Assembly (NCBI RefSeq): GCF_000590925.1
Contig: NZ_CP004372.1
Span: forward strand, 2,585,001 to 2,649,000
Source: Roseibacterium elongatum DSM 19469
Lineage (GTDB): Bacteria; Pseudomonadota; Alphaproteobacteria; Rhodobacterales; Rhodobacteraceae
Direction of reading: 5' to 3'
Length of the DNA: 64,000 nucleotides
The notes below the pieces were generated by a model. That model ran no database searches. It saw only the letters and a list, made by a program, of their open reading frames with translations, and was not told where the DNA came from. Below are positions 55,042-63,953 of the stretch, in pieces; within the stretch, counting starts at the first letter, position 1, and each line of letters starts with the position of its first letter. A program made the translations under genes and the position numbers.

Positions 55042-55201
55042 GCGTCTCGCCCGTCTCGCCCGCGCAAATGCGGGCGCCCCTATCCGGACGGATAGCTGGT
55101 GGGGCGAATGCATGATGCGTCTGGTTTTGTGCCGAAAGATCGGTAGGTAACGACCAGCCCCTGTCTTGTGGGGCCGTGACGATCACCTGGGGGTACACAT
55201 C

Positions 55202-56782
55202 ATGAGCACATCGGACACGCAAAGCGGGTCGGATACCGGCACGATCAACGGCATCGATGTCGGCCTGACGGCGACCTTGCCGACCTTCGCAACCGATACG
55301 TTCGATGTATCGGCCGATATCACCACCGGCGCGCTGAGCCAGGATATCAACGTGGCCCTGGTGATCGATACCTCGGGCTCGACCGCCGGCGACTCGGGCT
55401 CGGACGTGGATGGCGACGGGATCAACGACACCTATCTCGCGGCGCAGCAGGCCGCGGCCAAGGCGCTGTTCCAGTCGCTGCTCGAGGCCGGGTACAACCC
55501 AGAGGACGTGACCGTCACGCTGATCGAATACAACAATGCCGGACAGACCGTGGGCAACTTCACCCTGTCCCAGCAGGACGCGTTCGAAACCGCGGTCGAT
55601 GGCCTCGATGCGGGTGGCGGCACGAATTTCGACGATGCGCTGGACGAGGTGCTGCGCGAGTGGCGCGGCACAACGACCGACGGCGCGGCCGATGACAGCC
55701 CGCCCTCCGAGGTGACGGCGGATGATACCAACCTGATCGTGTTCCTCTCGGATGGGCGGCCGACCGTGGATGGCACGAATTTCAACAGCGAGCTTGCGGC
55801 CATCGAGGCCGAGTTCGATGCCGATATCACCGCGATCGGGGTGGGGGCGAACTCGTCTCTGACCCAGCTCGAGGTGATCGACAACACCGGCACGGCCACG
55901 CAGGTCACCGACTTGTCGCAACTGGCCGATGTCATCAACACGCCGCCGCCGCTGCCGGATCTGCAGGAAATCCAGATCCTGGTGAACGGCTCGGTCATCG
56001 AGACGATCCCGGCCGACGATCCGCGCATCATCACCACCCCCCTTGGCTACCGCCTGTCGCATGAAACCGTTACGGGCTATCCCTATGTCGTGGGCGAGAC
56101 GCTGGATGTGGCCGTGCGCGCCGTGTTCCACCCGACGGGCGACACGCTGACGGTCGACGGTCTGATCCTGCCGCTTTTCATCTGTTTCGTCGCCGGAACC
56201 CGCATCCTGACCCCCGAGGGACCAAAACCCATCGAATGCCTGGCCCCCGGCGACCTTGTGATGACCCGCGACCACGGTCTGCAGGCGATCCGCTGGATCG
56301 GGTCGACCACGCTGCCCGATCACGCCCTGGCCCACCGCCCCGAGGCGCGGCCGGTGCGGATCTCGGCCGGGGCCCTTGGCCACGGCCTGCCCGAGCGCGA
56401 CCTGCTGGTCTCGCGTCAGCATCGCATCCTGATCCACGACTGGCGGGCCGAGTTGTTCTTTGCCGCCGATGATGACGGCGTGCTGACCCCGGCCTTTTCA
56501 CTGGTCAATGACACGACCATCCGGCTGGACCGCTCCAAGGGCGGCGTCACCTATGTGCACATGGCCTTTGCGCGGCACGAGGTGGTCTATGCCGAGGGCG
56601 TCGAAGCCGAAAGCTTTCACCCCTATGCCAAGACCGTTGGCATGCTGGCCCCCGCACAGCGGGCCGAATTGTTCGCCCTGTTTCCCGACCTGGCCGAGGG
56701 CGAGGCCTACCCGTCGGCACGGCGCCAGTTGCGGGGCCGGGACGGGCGCGTTTTCGCTGCGGCATCGCCTGCGGTGGGCTGA
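55202..56782 (+). CDS. VWA-domain and Hint-domain fusion protein
   Basis: 526 residues, no signal peptide. VWA domain (about 48-250): metal-ion site DTSGS at 56-60, Thr 142 in GGGTNFDDAL, and FLSDG with Asp 185. The loop after the first helix carries an EF-hand-like DVDGDGIND (68-76). From about 325 a Hint (Hedgehog/intein) domain starts with FICFVAGTRILTPEGPKPIE (Cys 329) and continues GDLVMTRDHGLQAIRWIGS and RDLLVSRQHRILIHDW. The C-terminal HN-C residues of splicing inteins are not seen, so it belongs with Hint_2 proteins, often secreted by type I systems. Adhesion or self-cleavage roles are inference. Starts after CACCTGGGGG. Confidence 0.88.
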   Translation: MSTSDTQSGSDTGTINGIDVGLTATLPTFATDTFDVSADITTGALSQDINVALVIDTSGSTAGDSGSDVDGDGINDTYLAAQQAAAKALFQSLLEAGYNPEDVTVTLIEYNNAGQTVGNFTLSQQDAFETAVDGLDAGGGTNFDDALDEVLREWRGTTTDGAADDSPPSEVTADDTNLIVFLSDGRPTVDGTNFNSELAAIEAEFDADITAIGVGANSSLTQLEVIDNTGTATQVTDLSQLADVINTPPPLPDLQEIQILVNGSVIETIPADDPRIITTPLGYRLSHETVTGYPYVVGETLDVAVRAVFHPTGDTLTVDGLILPLFICFVAGTRILTPEGPKPIECLAPGDLVMTRDHGLQAIRWIGSTTLPDHALAHRPEARPVRISAGALGHGLPERDLLVSRQHRILIHDWRAELFFAADDDGVLTPAFSLVNDTTIRLDRSKGGVTYVHMAFARHEVVYAEGVEAESFHPYAKTVGMLAPAQRAELFALFPDLAEGEAYPSARRQLRGRDGRVFAAASPAVG

Positions 56783-57993: not shown

Positions 57994-58734
57994 TCAGCGC
58001 GTCTCGGCCCTTGCCGCGCGGGCGGCGCGCACCGATTGGCCCAGTTCGAGCGTGTAGGCTTCCAGGGCGCTCAGGATCTCGGCGGCGCGCGGCCCGTCGC
58101 CGGCCTCGATGGCATCGGCAAGCGAGGTGTGCAGCGCCCCGATCCGCTCGCGCGATCGGGCGGTGAAGGTGATCATGTTCATCAGCGGCTGCATCGCCTC
58201 GACCGCGCCGGCCAGCTGGTAGGACAGCACCGGGTTGCCCGCCGCATCCACCAAGGCGCGGTGAAAGGCGACATCCGAGGCGCAGAACGCCTCGTCCGTC
58301 AGGCCGGGCTGGCCCTGGCGGTGTATCTCGGCGCGCATGGTGGCCAGCTGGTCGGGGCTGCACCGTTCGGCCGCCAGCGGTGCACAGGCGCGTTCCAGCG
58401 CATAGCGCGCCTCGCAGGCGGTCTCAAAGGCGACCCCGTTCATCGACAACAGCAGCGTCGCGGTCGTGATCTGCTGGGCATAGGCCTCTTCATAGGACAG
58501 GCGGTTGACGAAGGCACCCCCGAAAGCCCCGCGTGTCGTGCGGATCAGCGATTGCGCGGCCAGCCGCTTCAGCGCTTCTCGGATCGTGGGGCGCGAGACC
58601 TCGAACTGCTCGGCCAGCTCTGCCTCGGAGGGGAGGCGTTCATCCACGATCAGACGGCCCGCAACGATCGAGTCGCGGATCGCATCGGCGATCTGTGCGG
58701 GCAGGCCGCGCGGGTTGTTGGGATCGATTTTCAT
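57994..58734 (-). CDS. GntR-family (FadR subfamily) transcriptional regulator
   Basis: 246-residue regulator: N-terminal winged helix RPTIREALKRLAAQSLIRTT (about 50-70; LPSEAELAEQFEVSRPTI precedes), then the all-helical FCD ligand domain with metal-binding His (FHRALVDAAGNP, LADAIEAGD). Divergent from the DUF2182-DUF1326-dmdA-acuI set. A perfect inverted repeat overlies its 5' flank, indicating autoregulation and control of the divergent operon. Candidate ligand: a DMSP- or acrylate-derived compound. Confidence 0.92.
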   Translation of the reverse strand: MKIDPNNPRGLPAQIADAIRDSIVAGRLIVDERLPSEAELAEQFEVSRPTIREALKRLAAQSLIRTTRGAFGGAFVNRLSYEEAYAQQITTATLLLSMNGVAFETACEARYALERACAPLAAERCSPDQLATMRAEIHRQGQPGLTDEAFCASDVAFHRALVDAAGNPVLSYQLAGAVEAMQPLMNMITFTARSRERIGALHTSLADAIEAGDGPRAAEILSALEAYTLELGQSVRAARAARAETR

Positions 58735-58735
58735 T

Positions 58736-58759
58736 TGTCAGACATTTAAAGGTCTGACA
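58736..58759. promoter_or_regulatory. Inverted-repeat operator of the GntR regulator
   Basis: TGTCAGAC-N8-GTCTGACA, a perfect palindrome of eight-base arms, begins two bases before the gntR start codon; a third GGTCTG word follows at 58764. It lies between gntR and the DUF2182 gene (start 58809). FadR-type regulators use such half-sites. Confidence 0.75.
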
Positions 58760-58808
58760 TTTTGGTCTGCAAGCGAAAACCGACTCAGCACGGCAAGGGA
58801 GGGCCGCG

Positions 58809-59567
58809 ATGATCGCCGCGCGCATCAGGTCCATGGCCGCGCCGCATTGGCTGGCGCTTTACGGTGGCATCCTGGCGACGTGGGCGCTGCTTTGGGTCAT
58901 GGCGCTGCCCGCCGATCTGCGCGCGGCCGCAGGGATCTATGGCGCGGACCTGATCGCGGCGCTGTGTACCACCGGGCCGGGCGGGGCGGGCTATCCCGGC
59001 CTCGTGCTGATGTGGGCGCTGATGGCGGGCGGCATGATGGCGCCCACCGCGCTGCCGGCATTCGCCACCTATGACGACCTGTCCCATGCGGGGGCCACGC
59101 GCTTTGGCGCGCTGGTCGCGGGCTATCTGGTGATCTGGCTGGGATTTGCCGTGCTGGCGGCGGCGGCGCAACTGGGCCTGACCCGCGCCGGTCTGCTGGG
59201 CGCCTTGGGCGAGAGCCGCTCGGCCCTGTTTTCGGGCGCGCTGCTGGTGGGCGCAGGCCTCTACCAATTTTCATCGCTGAAAGAGGCCTGCCTCAGTCGC
59301 TGCCGCGCGCCGCTGACGTTTTTCATGCAGCACTGGGGCGAGGGCGCGTTCCGGCAGGGCCTGCGGCTGGGGGCCGATTGCCTCGGCTGTTGCGCGGCCC
59401 TGATGGCACTGGCCTTTGTCGGCGGGGTCATGAGCCTTGGGTTCATGGCGCTGGGGATGGTGATGATGGCGTTGGAGAAGCTGCCCGTCCTCGGACGCTG
59501 GCTGACCGCGCCCTTGGGGATTGCATTGATCGCGGGCGGGATCTGGACCGCGCTTGCGACGATCTGA
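58809..59567 (+). CDS. DUF2182 family membrane protein
   Basis: 252-residue multi-span protein (six or seven hydrophobic segments). Typical features: LMAGGMMAPTALPAF (about 71-85), LKEACLSRCRAPLTFF (Cys 161, 165), DCLGCCAALMALAFVGG (Cys 191, 194, 195) and VMMALEKLPVLGR. Annotated families of this kind are predicted metal-binding membrane proteins. It starts after AGGGAGGG and lies 19 bases before DUF1326. Function unknown, possibly metal or thiol chemistry at the membrane. Confidence 0.88.
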   Translation: MIAARIRSMAAPHWLALYGGILATWALLWVMALPADLRAAAGIYGADLIAALCTTGPGGAGYPGLVLMWALMAGGMMAPTALPAFATYDDLSHAGATRFGALVAGYLVIWLGFAVLAAAAQLGLTRAGLLGALGESRSALFSGALLVGAGLYQFSSLKEACLSRCRAPLTFFMQHWGEGAFRQGLRLGADCLGCCAALMALAFVGGVMSLGFMALGMVMMALEKLPVLGRWLTAPLGIALIAGGIWTALATI

Positions 59568-59586
59568 AAGGGAGGGAGGAAAGACC

Positions 59587-60261
59587 ATGTATGATGACGT
59601 CGAGACCGAAGCCGGGGTGCAGACCACGCGCGACGAGCCGGGCAAGACCCCTTGGGCGATCAAGGGCGAGTTGATCCTGAACTGCAATTGCACCGTGTTC
59701 TGCCCCTGCGTGGTCAGCCTTGGCAAACACGCGCCCACCGAAGGGTACTGCCAGGCCTGGGCCGGGGTGCGCATCGACGAAGGGTTCTACGGAGACGCGG
59801 ATATCTCGGGCCTGAACGTGGGCCTGCTGCTGGAAATCCCCGGCCTGATGGCGCGCGGCAACTGGAAGGCGGCGGCCTTCATCGACGAGCGCGCCGATGA
59901 CGGCGCCTATGACGGGCTGGTGAACATCTTTTCCGGTGCGGCGCGCGGCACCACGGGCCTGTTCAGCCTGCTGGTGAGCGAGTTCCTGGGGGCCGAGCGC
60001 GCGCCTGTGATCTTCGAGACCGAGGGCAAGGCGCGTCGCCTGATGGTGGGCAAGAAGATCCAGGGCGAGGTCGTGCCCGTCGGCGGCAGCGACCCCGACA
60101 GCGATATCGTCGTGACCAACACGCAATACTGGATGGGCCCCGACATCACCGTCGCCACCGCCACCAAGGGCCGCGTGCGCGCCTTTGGCCGGGTGTGGGA
60201 TTTCGATGGCCGCTCGGCCGAGATCTGCCAGATCGACTGGGTCGGACCACAGGGGCGCTAG
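59587..60261 (+). CDS. DUF1326 domain protein
   Basis: 224 residues, soluble. Near the N-terminus LNCNCTVFCPCVVS contains four cysteines (33, 35, 39, 41) that look like a metal or thiol site; the rest is beta-rich: AGVRIDEGFYGDADISGL, VVTNTQYWMGPDITVATATK and FGRVWDFDGRSAEICQIDW. DUF1326 and DUF2182 genes are often adjacent. ATG 59587 after GGGAGGAAAG. Between DUF2182 and dmdA, likely the same transcript. Confidence 0.88.
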   Translation: MYDDVETEAGVQTTRDEPGKTPWAIKGELILNCNCTVFCPCVVSLGKHAPTEGYCQAWAGVRIDEGFYGDADISGLNVGLLLEIPGLMARGNWKAAAFIDERADDGAYDGLVNIFSGAARGTTGLFSLLVSEFLGAERAPVIFETEGKARRLMVGKKIQGEVVPVGGSDPDSDIVVTNTQYWMGPDITVATATKGRVRAFGRVWDFDGRSAEICQIDWVGPQGR

Positions 60262-60288
60262 GCCCCGTCAGCCGCAAGGGGGCCTGCC

Positions 60289-61392
60289 ATGGCTCAACTC
60301 TCGCTGTCGCGCCGCCTGCGCCGCACGCCGTTCACCGAAGGGGTGCTGGCCGCCGGTGTCACCGGTTACACCGTCTACAACCACATGCTGTTGCCCACGG
60401 TGTTCCGCTCGGTCGAAGAGGATTACCACCATCTCAAATCCGCGGTGCAGGTCTGGGACGTCTCGTGCCAGCGGCAGGTCGAGGTGCGCGGCCCCGATGC
60501 CGGACGGCTGGTGCAGATGCTGACGCCGCGCGACCTGCGCGGGATGCTTCCCGGACAATGCTACTACATGCCCATCGTCGATGAGACGGGGGGCATGCTG
60601 AATGACCCGGTCGTCGTCAAGCTGACCGAGGATCGGTGGTGGATTTCCATCGCCGACAGTGATCTGCTCTACTGGGTCAAGGGCATCGCCTATGGCTATC
60701 GCCTCGACGTTCTGGTGGACGAACCCGATGTGTCGCCGCTGGCGGTGCAGGGGCCGCGCGCCGATGACCTGATGGCCGAGGTTTTTGGCGACTCGGTGCG
60801 GGATCTGCGCTTTTTCCGCTTTGGCCTGTTTGGCTTCGGCGGTCGGCAATTGGTGGTCGCGCGCTCGGGCTATTCGAAACAGGGCGGCTACGAGATCTAT
60901 CTCGAAGGGGGTGATCTGGGCATGCCTCTGTGGAGTGCCCTGATAGAGGCAGGCCGGGCGCTGGACGTGCGCGCGGGCGGCCCGAACCTGATCGAGCGGA
61001 TCGAAAGCGGCTTGCTGAGCTATGGCAATGACATGACCGACGACAACACGCCCCATGAATGCGGGCTGGGCCGGTTCTGCAACACGGCCACGGCCATCGG
61101 CTGTATCGGCCGCGACGCCCTCCTGCGCGTGGCCAAGGAAGGCCCGGTGCAACAGATCCGGCCGCTGGCCATGTCCGGCGCCCCGGTCCCCGCAGTCGAA
61201 GAGTTCTGGCCGGTCATGGCCGGACACCGCAAGGTCGGGCGCGTGTCCTCGGCGGCGTTCTCGCCCGATTTCGGCGTCAACGTCTCGATCGCGATGATCC
61301 GCATGACCCATTGGGATGCGGGGGCGACGTTGACCGTCATGACGCCCGACGGCCCGCGCGAGGCGGTGGTGAAGGAAAAATTCTGGAACTGA
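60289..61392 (+). CDS. dmdA: Dimethylsulfoniopropionate (DMSP) demethylase DmdA
   Basis: 367-residue tetrahydrofolate-dependent methyltransferase of the GcvT family that removes a methyl group from DMSP, making methylmercaptopropionate. It keeps the DmdA N-terminus SRRLRRTPFTEGVLAAGVTG and TVYNHMLLPTVF, then CYYMPIVDETGGMLNDPVVV, RWWISIADSDLLYWVKGIAY, SGYSKQGGYEIYLEGG and NLIERIESGLLSYGNDM. Length is right (E. coli GcvT is similar but differs at these blocks). Followed by acuI, a known partner in roseobacters. This reading is a strong sequence match, not just family level. Confidence 0.93.
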   Translation: MAQLSLSRRLRRTPFTEGVLAAGVTGYTVYNHMLLPTVFRSVEEDYHHLKSAVQVWDVSCQRQVEVRGPDAGRLVQMLTPRDLRGMLPGQCYYMPIVDETGGMLNDPVVVKLTEDRWWISIADSDLLYWVKGIAYGYRLDVLVDEPDVSPLAVQGPRADDLMAEVFGDSVRDLRFFRFGLFGFGGRQLVVARSGYSKQGGYEIYLEGGDLGMPLWSALIEAGRALDVRAGGPNLIERIESGLLSYGNDMTDDNTPHECGLGRFCNTATAIGCIGRDALLRVAKEGPVQQIRPLAMSGAPVPAVEEFWPVMAGHRKVGRVSSAAFSPDFGVNVSIAMIRMTHWDAGATLTVMTPDGPREAVVKEKFWN

Positions 61393-61446
61393 CACAGGGG
61401 TTTGAGCGGAAGGGCTCAGCCAACACTTGAACGAGGAGATGCAGAG

Positions 61447-62439
61447 ATGACCTTTCGTGCGCTGGTGGTCGACAAGAATGACGAGGGCAAGACAAGCGCT
61501 TCGGTGCAGGAGCTGGGCGAAGAACGTCTGCCCGAGGGCGGCGTGACGGTCGCGGTCGAGTATTCGACGCTGAACTACAAGGACGGGTTGTGCATCGGGC
61601 CGGGCGGCGGGCTGGTGCGCAGCTACCCGCATGTGCCCGGCATCGATCTGGCCGGCACGGTCGAGGCCAGTGACGACGACCGCTACGCGCCGGGCGACAA
61701 GGTGGTGCTGACCGGCTGGCGCGTGGGCGAGGTGCATTGGGGCGGCTACGCCGAGAAGGCGCGGGTCAAGGCCGATTGGCTGGTGCCACTGCCCGAGGGG
61801 CTGACGACGCGGCAGGCCATGGCGGTGGGCACGGCGGGGTTCACGGCGATGCTGGCTGTCATGGCACTTGAAGATCACGGCCTAACACCAGAAAATGGCG
61901 AGGTTCTTGTCACGGGCGCTGCGGGTGGTGTCGGATCGGTCGCGACCGCGATCCTTGGGCATCTGGGCTACGAGGTGGCCGCCGTCACCGGCCGGCCCGA
62001 GCAAGAGGATTACCTGAAAAGCCTAGGCGCCGCCCGCATCGTCGCGCGTAGTGATCTGGCCGAGACCACCAAGCGCCCCCTCGAGGCGGAAACATGGGCA
62101 GGCTGTGTCGACGCGGTGGGTGGCGACATGCTGGCGCGCGTGTTGGGGCAGATGAAATACGGCGCCTCGGTTGCCGCCGTTGGGCTGGCCGGTGGCGCGC
62201 AATTGCCCGCGACGGTGATCCCCTTTTTGCTGAGGGGCGTGAACCTTCTGGGTATCGACAGCGTCATGCAACCCTATGAAAACCGTCTGCGCGCGTGGAA
62301 GCGCATCGCCCAGGATCTGCCGATGGACAAACTCGAGGCGATGATCGAGCCGGCGACGCTGGCCGATCTGCCCGATCTGGGCCGCGCCATTCTGAAGGGC
62401 GGCGTGCGCGGCCGCGTGGTGGTTGACGTCACGGCCTGA
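61447..62439 (+). CDS. acuI: Acrylyl-CoA reductase AcuI
   Basis: 330-residue MDR-type oxidoreductase reducing acryloyl-CoA to propionyl-CoA with NADPH; it detoxifies acrylate from DMSP cleavage. Core: VEYSTLNYKDGLCIG, HVPGIDLAGTVEASDDDRYA, VVLTGWRVGEVHWGGYAEKA and nucleotide site LVTGAAGGVGSVATAIL. ATG 61447 after AGGAG. Downstream of dmdA after 54 bases, same order as in other roseobacters. Confidence 0.93.
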   Translation: MTFRALVVDKNDEGKTSASVQELGEERLPEGGVTVAVEYSTLNYKDGLCIGPGGGLVRSYPHVPGIDLAGTVEASDDDRYAPGDKVVLTGWRVGEVHWGGYAEKARVKADWLVPLPEGLTTRQAMAVGTAGFTAMLAVMALEDHGLTPENGEVLVTGAAGGVGSVATAILGHLGYEVAAVTGRPEQEDYLKSLGAARIVARSDLAETTKRPLEAETWAGCVDAVGGDMLARVLGQMKYGASVAAVGLAGGAQLPATVIPFLLRGVNLLGIDSVMQPYENRLRAWKRIAQDLPMDKLEAMIEPATLADLPDLGRAILKGGVRGRVVVDVTA

Positions 62440-62534: not shown

Positions 62535-63953
62535 ATGACCGATGCCCCCGTCCTCTACTGGACCCGCCGCGATTTCCGCCTGTCCGACAACCCGGCCCTG
62601 GTCGCCGCCTGCGACAGCGGCGCGCCCGTCATCCCGGTGTTCATCTGCGACGAGGTGGTCGAAACGCACGGTGCCGCGCCGAAATGGCGGCTGGGGTTGG
62701 GGGCCGAAGCCTTTGGCGCGGCGTTGCAGGGGGCGGGATCGCGCCTGATCTATCGGCGCGGTCCGGCGCTGGAGGTGCTGCGTGCCCTGATCGCGGAAAC
62801 CGGCGCGACCGCGGTGCATTGGAACCGCCTGTACGACCCCGACAGCCGGCAGCGCGACGAGGGCGTGAAATCCGGCCTCAAGGCCGATGGCATCGACGCC
62901 CACAGCCACGCCGGCCACATCCTGTTCGAGCCCTGGACGGTCGAAACCGGCACGGGTGGCTTCTACAAGGTGTATACGCCCTTCTGGAAGGCGGTGCGCG
63001 GGCGCGATCCGGGCCCGGCGCTGTCGGCCCCGAAGATCCCGGCGGCCAAGACCTGGCCCGAAAGCGACACCCCGTCCGATTGGGGCCTTGGCAAGGCCAT
63101 GCGGCGCGGCGCCGACATCGTGCACCCCCACCTGGCAATCGGGGAAGAGGCCGCGCGCGGGCGGCTTGGTGCGTTCATGTCCAATGGGATCGACGCCTAT
63201 GTTACGGCGCGGGACGATCTGGCGACCAACGGCACCTCGCACCTGTCGGAAAACCTGACCTATGGCGAGATCAGCGCGCGCGCCTGCTGGTGGGCGGGGC
63301 AACGCGCGATGGACGAGGGCAAGGCAGGGGCCGAGACCTTTCTCAAGGAGATCGTCTGGCGCGATTTCGCCTATCACCTCGTCTACCACACGCCACGCAT
63401 CACCAGCGGAAACTGGCGCGAGGAATGGGATGCCTTTCCGTGGACCGAGGATGAACGCCGCGCCGAGGTGAAGGCGTGGAAACAGGGGCGCACCGGCATG
63501 CAGATCGTCGATGCCGCCATGCGCGAGATGTATGTGACCGGGCGCATGCACAATCGCGCGCGGATGCTGGTGGCCTCCTACCTGACCAAGCACCTGATGT
63601 GTCACTGGAAGATCGGGCTGGACTGGTTCGAGGAATGCCTTGTCGACTGGGACCCGGCCAGCAACGCGATGGGCTGGCAATGGTCGGCGGGTTCGGGGCC
63701 CGACGCAACGCCATATTTCCGGGTCTTCAACCCCGAGACCCAGGCCGAGAAATTCGACAAGCATGGGCGCTATCGCCGCCGCTGGCTGGCCGAGATCACC
63801 AGCCAGCCACCCGACACGGCGACCAGCTATTTCGAGGCGATCCCGGAAAGCTGGGGCATGACGGCCGACGACGCCTACCCCTCGGCGCCGATCGTCAGTG
63901 CCGCCGAGGGGCGCAAACGCGCACTCGCGGCCTATGAGAACCGCGACTTCTGA
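62535..63953 (+). CDS. phrB: Deoxyribodipyrimidine photolyase
   Basis: 472-residue flavoenzyme repairing UV dimers in DNA by light. N-terminal antenna domain VLYWTRRDFRLSDNPALVAA, DNA-binding region TYGEISARACWW, ETFLKEIVWRDFAYH, the FAD-binding domain with GRTGMQIVDAAMREM, TGRMHNRARMLVASYLTKHL and DWDPASNAMGWQWSAGSGPD. Class I CPD photolyase. Own transcription likely; 95 bases after acuI. A GC-rich hairpin follows. Confidence 0.95.
   Translation: MTDAPVLYWTRRDFRLSDNPALVAACDSGAPVIPVFICDEVVETHGAAPKWRLGLGAEAFGAALQGAGSRLIYRRGPALEVLRALIAETGATAVHWNRLYDPDSRQRDEGVKSGLKADGIDAHSHAGHILFEPWTVETGTGGFYKVYTPFWKAVRGRDPGPALSAPKIPAAKTWPESDTPSDWGLGKAMRRGADIVHPHLAIGEEAARGRLGAFMSNGIDAYVTARDDLATNGTSHLSENLTYGEISARACWWAGQRAMDEGKAGAETFLKEIVWRDFAYHLVYHTPRITSGNWREEWDAFPWTEDERRAEVKAWKQGRTGMQIVDAAMREMYVTGRMHNRARMLVASYLTKHLMCHWKIGLDWFEECLVDWDPASNAMGWQWSAGSGPDATPYFRVFNPETQAEKFDKHGRYRRRWLAEITSQPPDTATSYFEAIPESWGMTADDAYPSAPIVSAAEGRKRALAAYENRDF

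Follow-up and report, generated by a model that had tools for sequence, protein, structure and literature searches.

We analysed a 64-kb window (the whole stretch of DNA considered here, to which all positions refer) of the 3.56-Mb genome of Roseibacterium elongatum DSM 19469 (NZ_CP004372.1). It carries a row of genes for the use of dimethylsulfoniopropionate (DMSP), headed by a pair of genes from the PpoB2 and DUF1326 families. The gene gntR (57994-58734, minus strand) codes for a GntR/FCD-family regulator (PF00392, 66.6 bits, and PF07729, 77.1 bits, both over the cut-off) and is divergent from the operon. On the plus strand lie the first operon gene, coding for a PpoB2-family membrane protein (58809-59567; PF09948, formerly DUF2182, COG5486; 196.1 bits, cut-off 28.7), the gene of a DUF1326 protein (59587-60261; PF07040, 167.9 bits, cut-off 25), dmdA for DMSP demethylase (60289-61392; equivalog NF009133, 654 bits, cut-off 410) and acuI for an NADPH-dependent acryloyl-CoA reductase (61447-62439; equivalog NF051456, 445 bits, cut-off 440). 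The gaps between these four genes are 19, 27 and 54 bases long, and the row agrees with the one given in a preliminary description made from the sequence alone. Judging by the spacing and by the position of an operator in front of the row, the four genes are probably read as one transcript; a sigma-70 scan of the sequence found no promoter. The host genome has a single match to each of PF09948 and PF07040 in a profile search, as well as one match to the cupin-type DMSP lyase family (PF16867). The closest named relatives of the window's DUF1326 protein are those of Maritalea mobilis DP3N28-3 (91% identity) and Roseibacterium beibuensis (90%).

The operator, a 24-base inverted repeat (58736-58759, no strand assigned), starts two bases upstream of the gntR start codon. 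The preliminary description had called it perfect; indeed, it fits TGTCAGAC-N8-GTCTGACA with 0 mismatches and is the sole match in the window at up to three mismatches, where shuffled sequences give an expected mean of 0.09. It resolves into TGTCAGACA (58736-58744) and GGTCTGACA (58751-58759), two TGTCNGACA-type sites spaced 15 bp centre to centre, and is better read as two such sites than as a single inverted repeat. A generalised form of the pattern had only this match with fewer than two mismatches in the whole host genome; a genome-wide GntR regulon was therefore dropped as a candidate. When up to three mismatches were allowed, the host gave 114 matches in the forward scan, and the backward control gave 58.

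The comparison covered 198 genomes of the host's family, each from a different genus, which were searched for DUF1326, dmdA and PpoB2. The totals still include incomplete genomes and misses at contig ends; loci were sampled via the pair or via dmdA, and the counts do not measure retention of the pair as such. We call a pair canonical if PpoB2 is situated upstream of DUF1326; a second, paralogous type has the opposite order. Genes for dmdA over the cut-off were found in 84 genomes, DUF1326 in 106 and PpoB2 in 110, with a PpoB2 match in all 106 of the DUF1326 genomes. In 64 of the 84 dmdA genera DUF1326 was located upstream of dmdA, on the same strand and within 1.7 kb; PpoB2 was then upstream of DUF1326, again on the same strand and within 2 kb, in all 64 loci. 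The remaining dmdA genomes had DUF1326 elsewhere (7, some of them with short contigs) or had no DUF1326 (13). Over all 198 genomes, the canonical pair and dmdA occurred together in 71, the pair only in 24 (genera with no dmdA over the cut-off, some of these genomes being incomplete), dmdA only in 13 and neither in 90 (p = 1e-19; the Fisher tests assume that genomes of different genera are independent and, as related genera are not, all p-values given here serve as guides). Association of the pair with dmdA is thus far from random, and a chance association, named beforehand as evidence against a joint role, is not what other genomes show. On the other hand, the preliminary description had the pair 'inserted' into a DMSP demethylation operon. 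This wording was wrong, since the pair usually heads the locus; with dmdA the more variable member, insertion of the pair into a dmdA operon is rejected.

A tblastn search found acuI in 57 and a divergent gntR in 51 of the 64 dmdA-linked loci. The space between DUF1326 and dmdA is often empty, as in the window, or holds a gene of the DinB family (PF05163; 31/64) or of an acyl-CoA synthetase (6/64). The DinB gene is seen in this place at locus L097 and in a member of the host's own genus (L344); it is absent from the window. We considered whether the synthetase could be dmdB. The three copies scanned scored above the cut-off of the acyl-CoA synthetase subfamily PRK08162 and did not reach that of the 3-(methylthio)propionyl-CoA ligase model, and hence the gene is called an acyl-CoA synthetase here. 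DMSP lyase cupins (PF16867) are not a common partner: their link to the canonical pair was weak over all genomes (p = 0.03), with p = 0.10 within dmdA-negative and p = 1.0 within dmdA-positive genomes.

The gene following dmdA proved to be the steadier companion. Among 93 canonical loci of the family sample, dmdA was present in 63 and acuI, within 2.6 kb, in 75; along the DUF1326 tree the presence of dmdA changes 22 times and that of acuI 13 times. Among the 30 canonical loci that lack a dmdA, acuI is retained in 21 at a distance of up to 2.6 kb, and the wider gene order is often the same as well. As acuI usually still follows the pair where dmdA is missing, dmdA is the more labile member. Among the best 80 of 428 candidate named loci, PpoB2 was found in 78, acuI in 71 and dmdA in 53, several of the misses being due to short contigs. 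The loci of Tritonibacter mobilis and Tritonibacter horizontis show matching rows of genes apart from dmdA, which the latter locus lacks (the statement is confined to the locus).

The opposite-order pair makes an internal control. Counting dmdA, acuI or the synthetase within 2.6 kb, we found one or more of them at 101 of 124 canonical loci (93 of 112 with duplicates dropped) versus 0 of 43 opposite-order loci. The order of the two genes changes only three times in a DUF1326 tree of 170 rows, a quick tree with long-branch warnings, from which twelve duplicate loci had been dropped beforehand. The opposite-order pair and dmdA were unassociated (both 8, pair only 13, dmdA only 76, neither 101; p = 0.82), and in 29 loci, most of this type, no gene cluster besides the pair itself occurred in more than four.

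Outside the family, the class-level sample comprised 240 genomes of Alphaproteobacteria (the class was inferred from named relatives); DUF1326 was found in 33 of them, three being members of the family. Among the loci listed, one from outside the family (L333) has the order PpoB2-DUF1326-dmdA-acyl-CoA synthetase, with dmdA at 504 bits. Two more from one other family group (L334, L335) have the canonical pair and only a synthetase of the same subfamily as that of L333, in L335 detected by tblastn only; a fourth (L336) has the canonical order, with no DMSP or acyl-CoA gene seen. By coordinates, no adjacency of DUF1326 and acuI was found outside the family (240 genomes, acuI at E 1e-80), although contig breaks may hide some cases. 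In a phylum sample of 299 genomes, 26 matched the host DUF1326 at E 1e-20. These samples also brought up f155 (loci L348-L355 and L368-L370), a large-genome genus of the same class with canonical-type DUF1326 proteins of 56-58% identity and PpoB2 upstream. Taken together, the gene neighbourhoods suggest that the tie of the pair to the DMSP genes is strong, not exclusive.

We then compared the regions beside gntR in 62 loci with a divergent target, four of which have no pair (L144, L145, L148, L153); two loci where gntR and PpoB2 are co-directional (L143, L185) were left out. A TGTCNGACA site with at most one mismatch was present beside gntR in 62/62 loci, and a perfect one in 52/62; a second site followed at 14, 15 or 33 bp in 46/62. 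Markov controls gave 7.7% for a site with at most one mismatch, 0.3% for a perfect site and 0% for paired sites. For the 34 loci whose sites are 15 bp apart the consensus is TCATTTGTCAGACATTTAAAAGTCTGACATTTAA; in the window's layout its CAT is the gntR start codon read on the other strand. At canonical loci without gntR, paired sites were found in 0/34 (versus 46/62, p = 5e-14) and a single site in 5/34, about the chance level. The operator and gntR come and go together, which argues that it is this GntR protein that binds the double site. The regulator was present at 50 of 63 canonical loci with dmdA versus 9 of 30 without it (p = 7e-6). All 128 aligned sequences of the protein, that of the window among them, have Cys151, Asp154 and His158. 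Binding of a metal and of a small acid at such residues is common among FCD proteins.

Between them, the two head proteins carry a set of invariant cysteine and methionine residues. In the window, PpoB2 has the cysteines C161xxxC165 and C191xxC194C195, and DUF1326 has C33, C35, C39 and C41 in a cluster NCNCxxxCPC (59683-59709, plus strand); the four clustered N-terminal cysteines of one protein and the CxxxC and CxxCC motifs of the other had been picked out in the preliminary description and are confirmed here. In alignments of 76 sequences each (A1 for DUF1326, A2 for PpoB2), C35, C39, C41 and C55 (59749-59751, plus strand) of DUF1326 are invariant, while C33 is present in 90% or more. All five PpoB2 cysteines, residues 161-195 (59289-59393, plus strand), are invariant, as are M68, W69, M72, M76, M77 and P79 in residues 68-79 (59010-59045, plus strand). 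The AlphaFold2 model of PpoB2 is helical (pLDDT 82.8), and comparison with PDB structures gave no convincing match (best E 0.85); a sequence search of solved structures found none for DUF1326 and one chance-level match for PpoB2. The N terminus of DUF1326 has nothing signal-like by eye. Family membership together with the invariant Cys and Met residues favours copper or thiol handling by the pair. Thus, of the co-regulated membrane metal/thiol module put forward in the preliminary description, the placement of the pair behind a gntR operator holds, the operator being conserved with at least one site at 62/62 gntR loci, whereas the metal/thiol character is so far indicated by the family and by these invariant residues only.

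Parts of this arrangement are known. The Roseobacter operon described by Todd et al. 2012 (PMC3338564) is alike in that acuI comes directly after dmdA, in the window on the same strand with a gap of 54 bases. In the portion of that paper drawn on here the operon consists of dmdA-acuI only, 'GntR' occurs 0 times in the text, and no mention of PpoB2, DUF1326 or DinB genes upstream was seen. The AcuR system, as far as the accounts used here describe it, is alike in that a local repressor acting at an inverted-repeat operator controls acuI, with acrylate as co-inducer; however, AcuR is a TetR-family protein encoded by the first gene of its operon, while the window's regulator is a divergent GntR/FCD protein with different genes under it. 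For the first operon gene, the Pfam name of PF09948, 'PpoB2, Copper chaperone', is shared with the PpoB1-PpoB2 tyrosinase operon of Marinomonas mediterranea, whose PpoB2 is described, in the part of PMC2855505 considered, as passing copper to tyrosinase. The window's PpoB2 differs from it in being paired with DUF1326 and DMSP genes. A DUF1326 record from Tritonibacter mobilis (P0046), 86% identical to the window's protein, bears the name 'FIG098787: protein involved in DMSP breakdown'; it is a bare name for which no paper was found, although it implies that annotators had seen the neighbourhood. In full-text literature (most subscription papers being outside its scope) no paper with DUF2182 or DUF1326 was found, one with COG5486, and none with SPO1910-SPO1912, FIG098787 or TM1040_1445. 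Nor did we find a paper linking PpoB2 or DUF1326 to dmdA in a body of literature that included parts of PMC3338564, PMC4334477, PMC9769926, PMC3017554 and PMC5395565. The combination of a known operon, a conserved head and a candidate switch was found described nowhere in the literature searched.

The best reading of the locus is a GntR-switched acrylate/DMSP operon headed by a membrane-plus-soluble Cys/Met unit. The data establish which genes are present, their order, conservation and linkage, and the joint occurrence of the operator and gntR; binding and repression by GntR, the effector, the metal and the physiological role are inferences. To its full form we assign a probability of roughly 45%: the locus would be a fuller version of the known roseobacter dmdA-acuI operon, to which an effector-released GntR switch on two TGTCNGACA sites and a PpoB2-DUF1326 unit for a thiophilic metal are added. 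The FCD-type GntR protein would occupy both sites, in the stretch between the gntR start codon and the promoter of PpoB2, and repress in both directions. An effector formed from DMSP would lift the repression of PpoB2-DUF1326-(DinB)-dmdA-acuI; acrylate or something derived from it is the candidate, because dmdA-acuI of Ruegeria pomeroyi responds to acrylate as well as to DMSP (induction ∼12-fold by array and ∼14-fold by reporter with acrylate, ∼14-fold by array and ∼10-fold by reporter with 5 mM DMSP; from the part of PMC3338564 used here). The induced operon would yield an acryloyl-CoA reductase and a demethylase that diverts DMSP from acrylate, both of which follow from the known enzymes. 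The PpoB2-type membrane protein, with its invariant Met and Cys, and DUF1326, with its NCNCxxxCPC cluster, may form a single unit for binding a thiophilic metal, with Cu(I) as the likeliest candidate. Such a unit could keep the metal, or its thiol ligands, in order under the flood of electrophiles (acryloyl-CoA, methylthioacryloyl-CoA) and of reactive thiols that comes from DMSP breakdown. DinB relatives include thiol transferases; a DinB gene in the gap before dmdA would therefore fit the electrophile idea.

Several observations weigh against this reading. In the eight genomes of f155, all of one genus, neither dmdA nor a close acuI was seen within 1.5 kb of the pair, which counts against a strict DMSP tie. 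The regulator is missing from 34 of the 93 canonical loci and is rarer where dmdA is absent, and so it is not universal to the pair; L143 and L185 have another layout, with gntR co-directional with PpoB2-DUF1326 and acuI divergent, and only one TGTCNGACA site each, with one mismatch. The model of DUF1326 comes closer to an enzyme fold than to a metallochaperone. No tyrosinase (PF00264) match was found in the host, and only five of the 198 relatives have one; tyrosinase was thus rejected as the client of the window's PpoB2, which we file as a PF09948 member and not as a tyrosinase chaperone. DmdA is not known to be a metalloenzyme. YhdH is described without a Zn co-factor in the part of PMC3338564 considered. 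The induction data come from R. pomeroyi DSS-3, a strain outside the survey of the pair, and in low-DMSP chemostats of this species acuI changed by 1.0-1.7-fold only, according to the portion of PMC9769926 used; induction therefore depends on conditions.

The fold of DUF1326, predicted to be acetoacetate-decarboxylase-like, leads to a different explanation, which we consider unlikely: an enzyme with such a cone and a cysteine-based site would act on one of the pathway's small acids or CoA esters (acrylate, 3-hydroxypropionate or a derivative), the membrane protein being its partner or exporter. Acetoacetate decarboxylase uses a Schiff-base lysine in its mechanism, but no lysine is present among the 22 invariant or 12 nearly invariant DUF1326 columns (76 sequences), and the CxC...CPC cluster resembles a site for metal or thiol. 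Furthermore, both families travel together elsewhere without these genes, since none of the 43 opposite-order loci has dmdA, acuI or the synthetase within 2.6 kb. It is more doubtful still that the pair handles methanethiol, a role proposed in the preliminary description, or supplies copper to methanethiol oxidase (MtoX), the copper enzyme by which the methanethiol from DMSP demethylation is consumed. An mtoX-type gene (SBP56) is indeed associated with DUF1326 over the 198 genomes (both 52, SBP56 only 15, DUF1326 only 54, neither 77; p = 1e-6), and mtoX was 39-fold up with DMSP in the R. pomeroyi chemostats, as given in the part of PMC9769926 used. However, within dmdA-positive genomes the association is gone (43/6/28/7 in the same order; p = 0.37), the host genome has no SBP56/MtoX match, and the 24 genera mentioned above have the canonical pair in the absence of a dmdA over the cut-off. 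A methanethiol-only role is thus a poor fit, and copper supply to MtoX is unsupported.

We also weighed, as a rather improbable case, the pair being a bystander, i.e. an unrelated metal module that was caught in a conserved locus and is passed on with it through common descent and the common promoter. The behaviour of the opposite-order pair as a cassette with varying neighbours would agree with this, as would the divergence of PpoB2, which with a median pairwise identity of 44% is the lowest of the six operon proteins compared (AcuI, 81%), and the existence of dmdA-acuI loci with gntR and no pair, e.g. L144, L145 and L153. Yet in three family groups of Alphaproteobacteria, differing in gene content, the canonical pair has DMSP or acyl-CoA genes as neighbours, and only the canonical type is tied to dmdA.

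Returning to the GntR-switched operon with its Cys/Met head, one could speculate further, with the odds clearly against it, that in many roseobacters the regulator so far lacking for the bacterial DMSP switch is this GntR protein with its TGTCNGACA double site, Cys151-Asp154-His158 perhaps serving to sense the effector, and that PpoB2-DUF1326 forms a copper/thiol relay of a new, two-protein kind, devoted to protecting the cell from the electrophiles and thiols that DMSP gives rise to and more firmly anchored in the locus than dmdA. Whether DMSP, a major marine sulfur and carbon compound, is demethylated or cleaved sets the amount of dimethyl sulfide released, and on the signal that controls the switch a 2017 review, in the part considered, reports no consensus (PMC5395565). 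With a regulator and an operator conserved ahead of dmdA, the switch could be approached directly in ordinary roseobacter strains; if metal/thiol handling by the pair is true, an unstudied layer in DMSP use, possibly involving copper, would be added, along with a function for DUF1326.

Some neighbouring genes deserve mention. A lone gene for an ABC-type substrate-binding protein (PF13343; 56865-57902, minus strand) is located directly downstream of gntR; it has relatives in 10 of the 64 dmdA-linked loci (host included) and in 22 of the 80 named loci (the best 80 of 428 candidates), e.g. in Jannaschia and Yoonia, and could belong to the same unit. A class-V aminotransferase (PF00266) was found in 28/64 and a BCCT transporter in 16/64 dmdA-linked loci, mostly downstream of acuI, where L121 also has the aminotransferase; neither was seen adjoining acuI in the window, in which acuI is followed by a photolyase gene (62535-63953). 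Finally, a long open reading frame at 55166-56782 (plus strand) appears by eye to code for a von Willebrand A domain and, C-terminal to it, a Hint/intein-like part.

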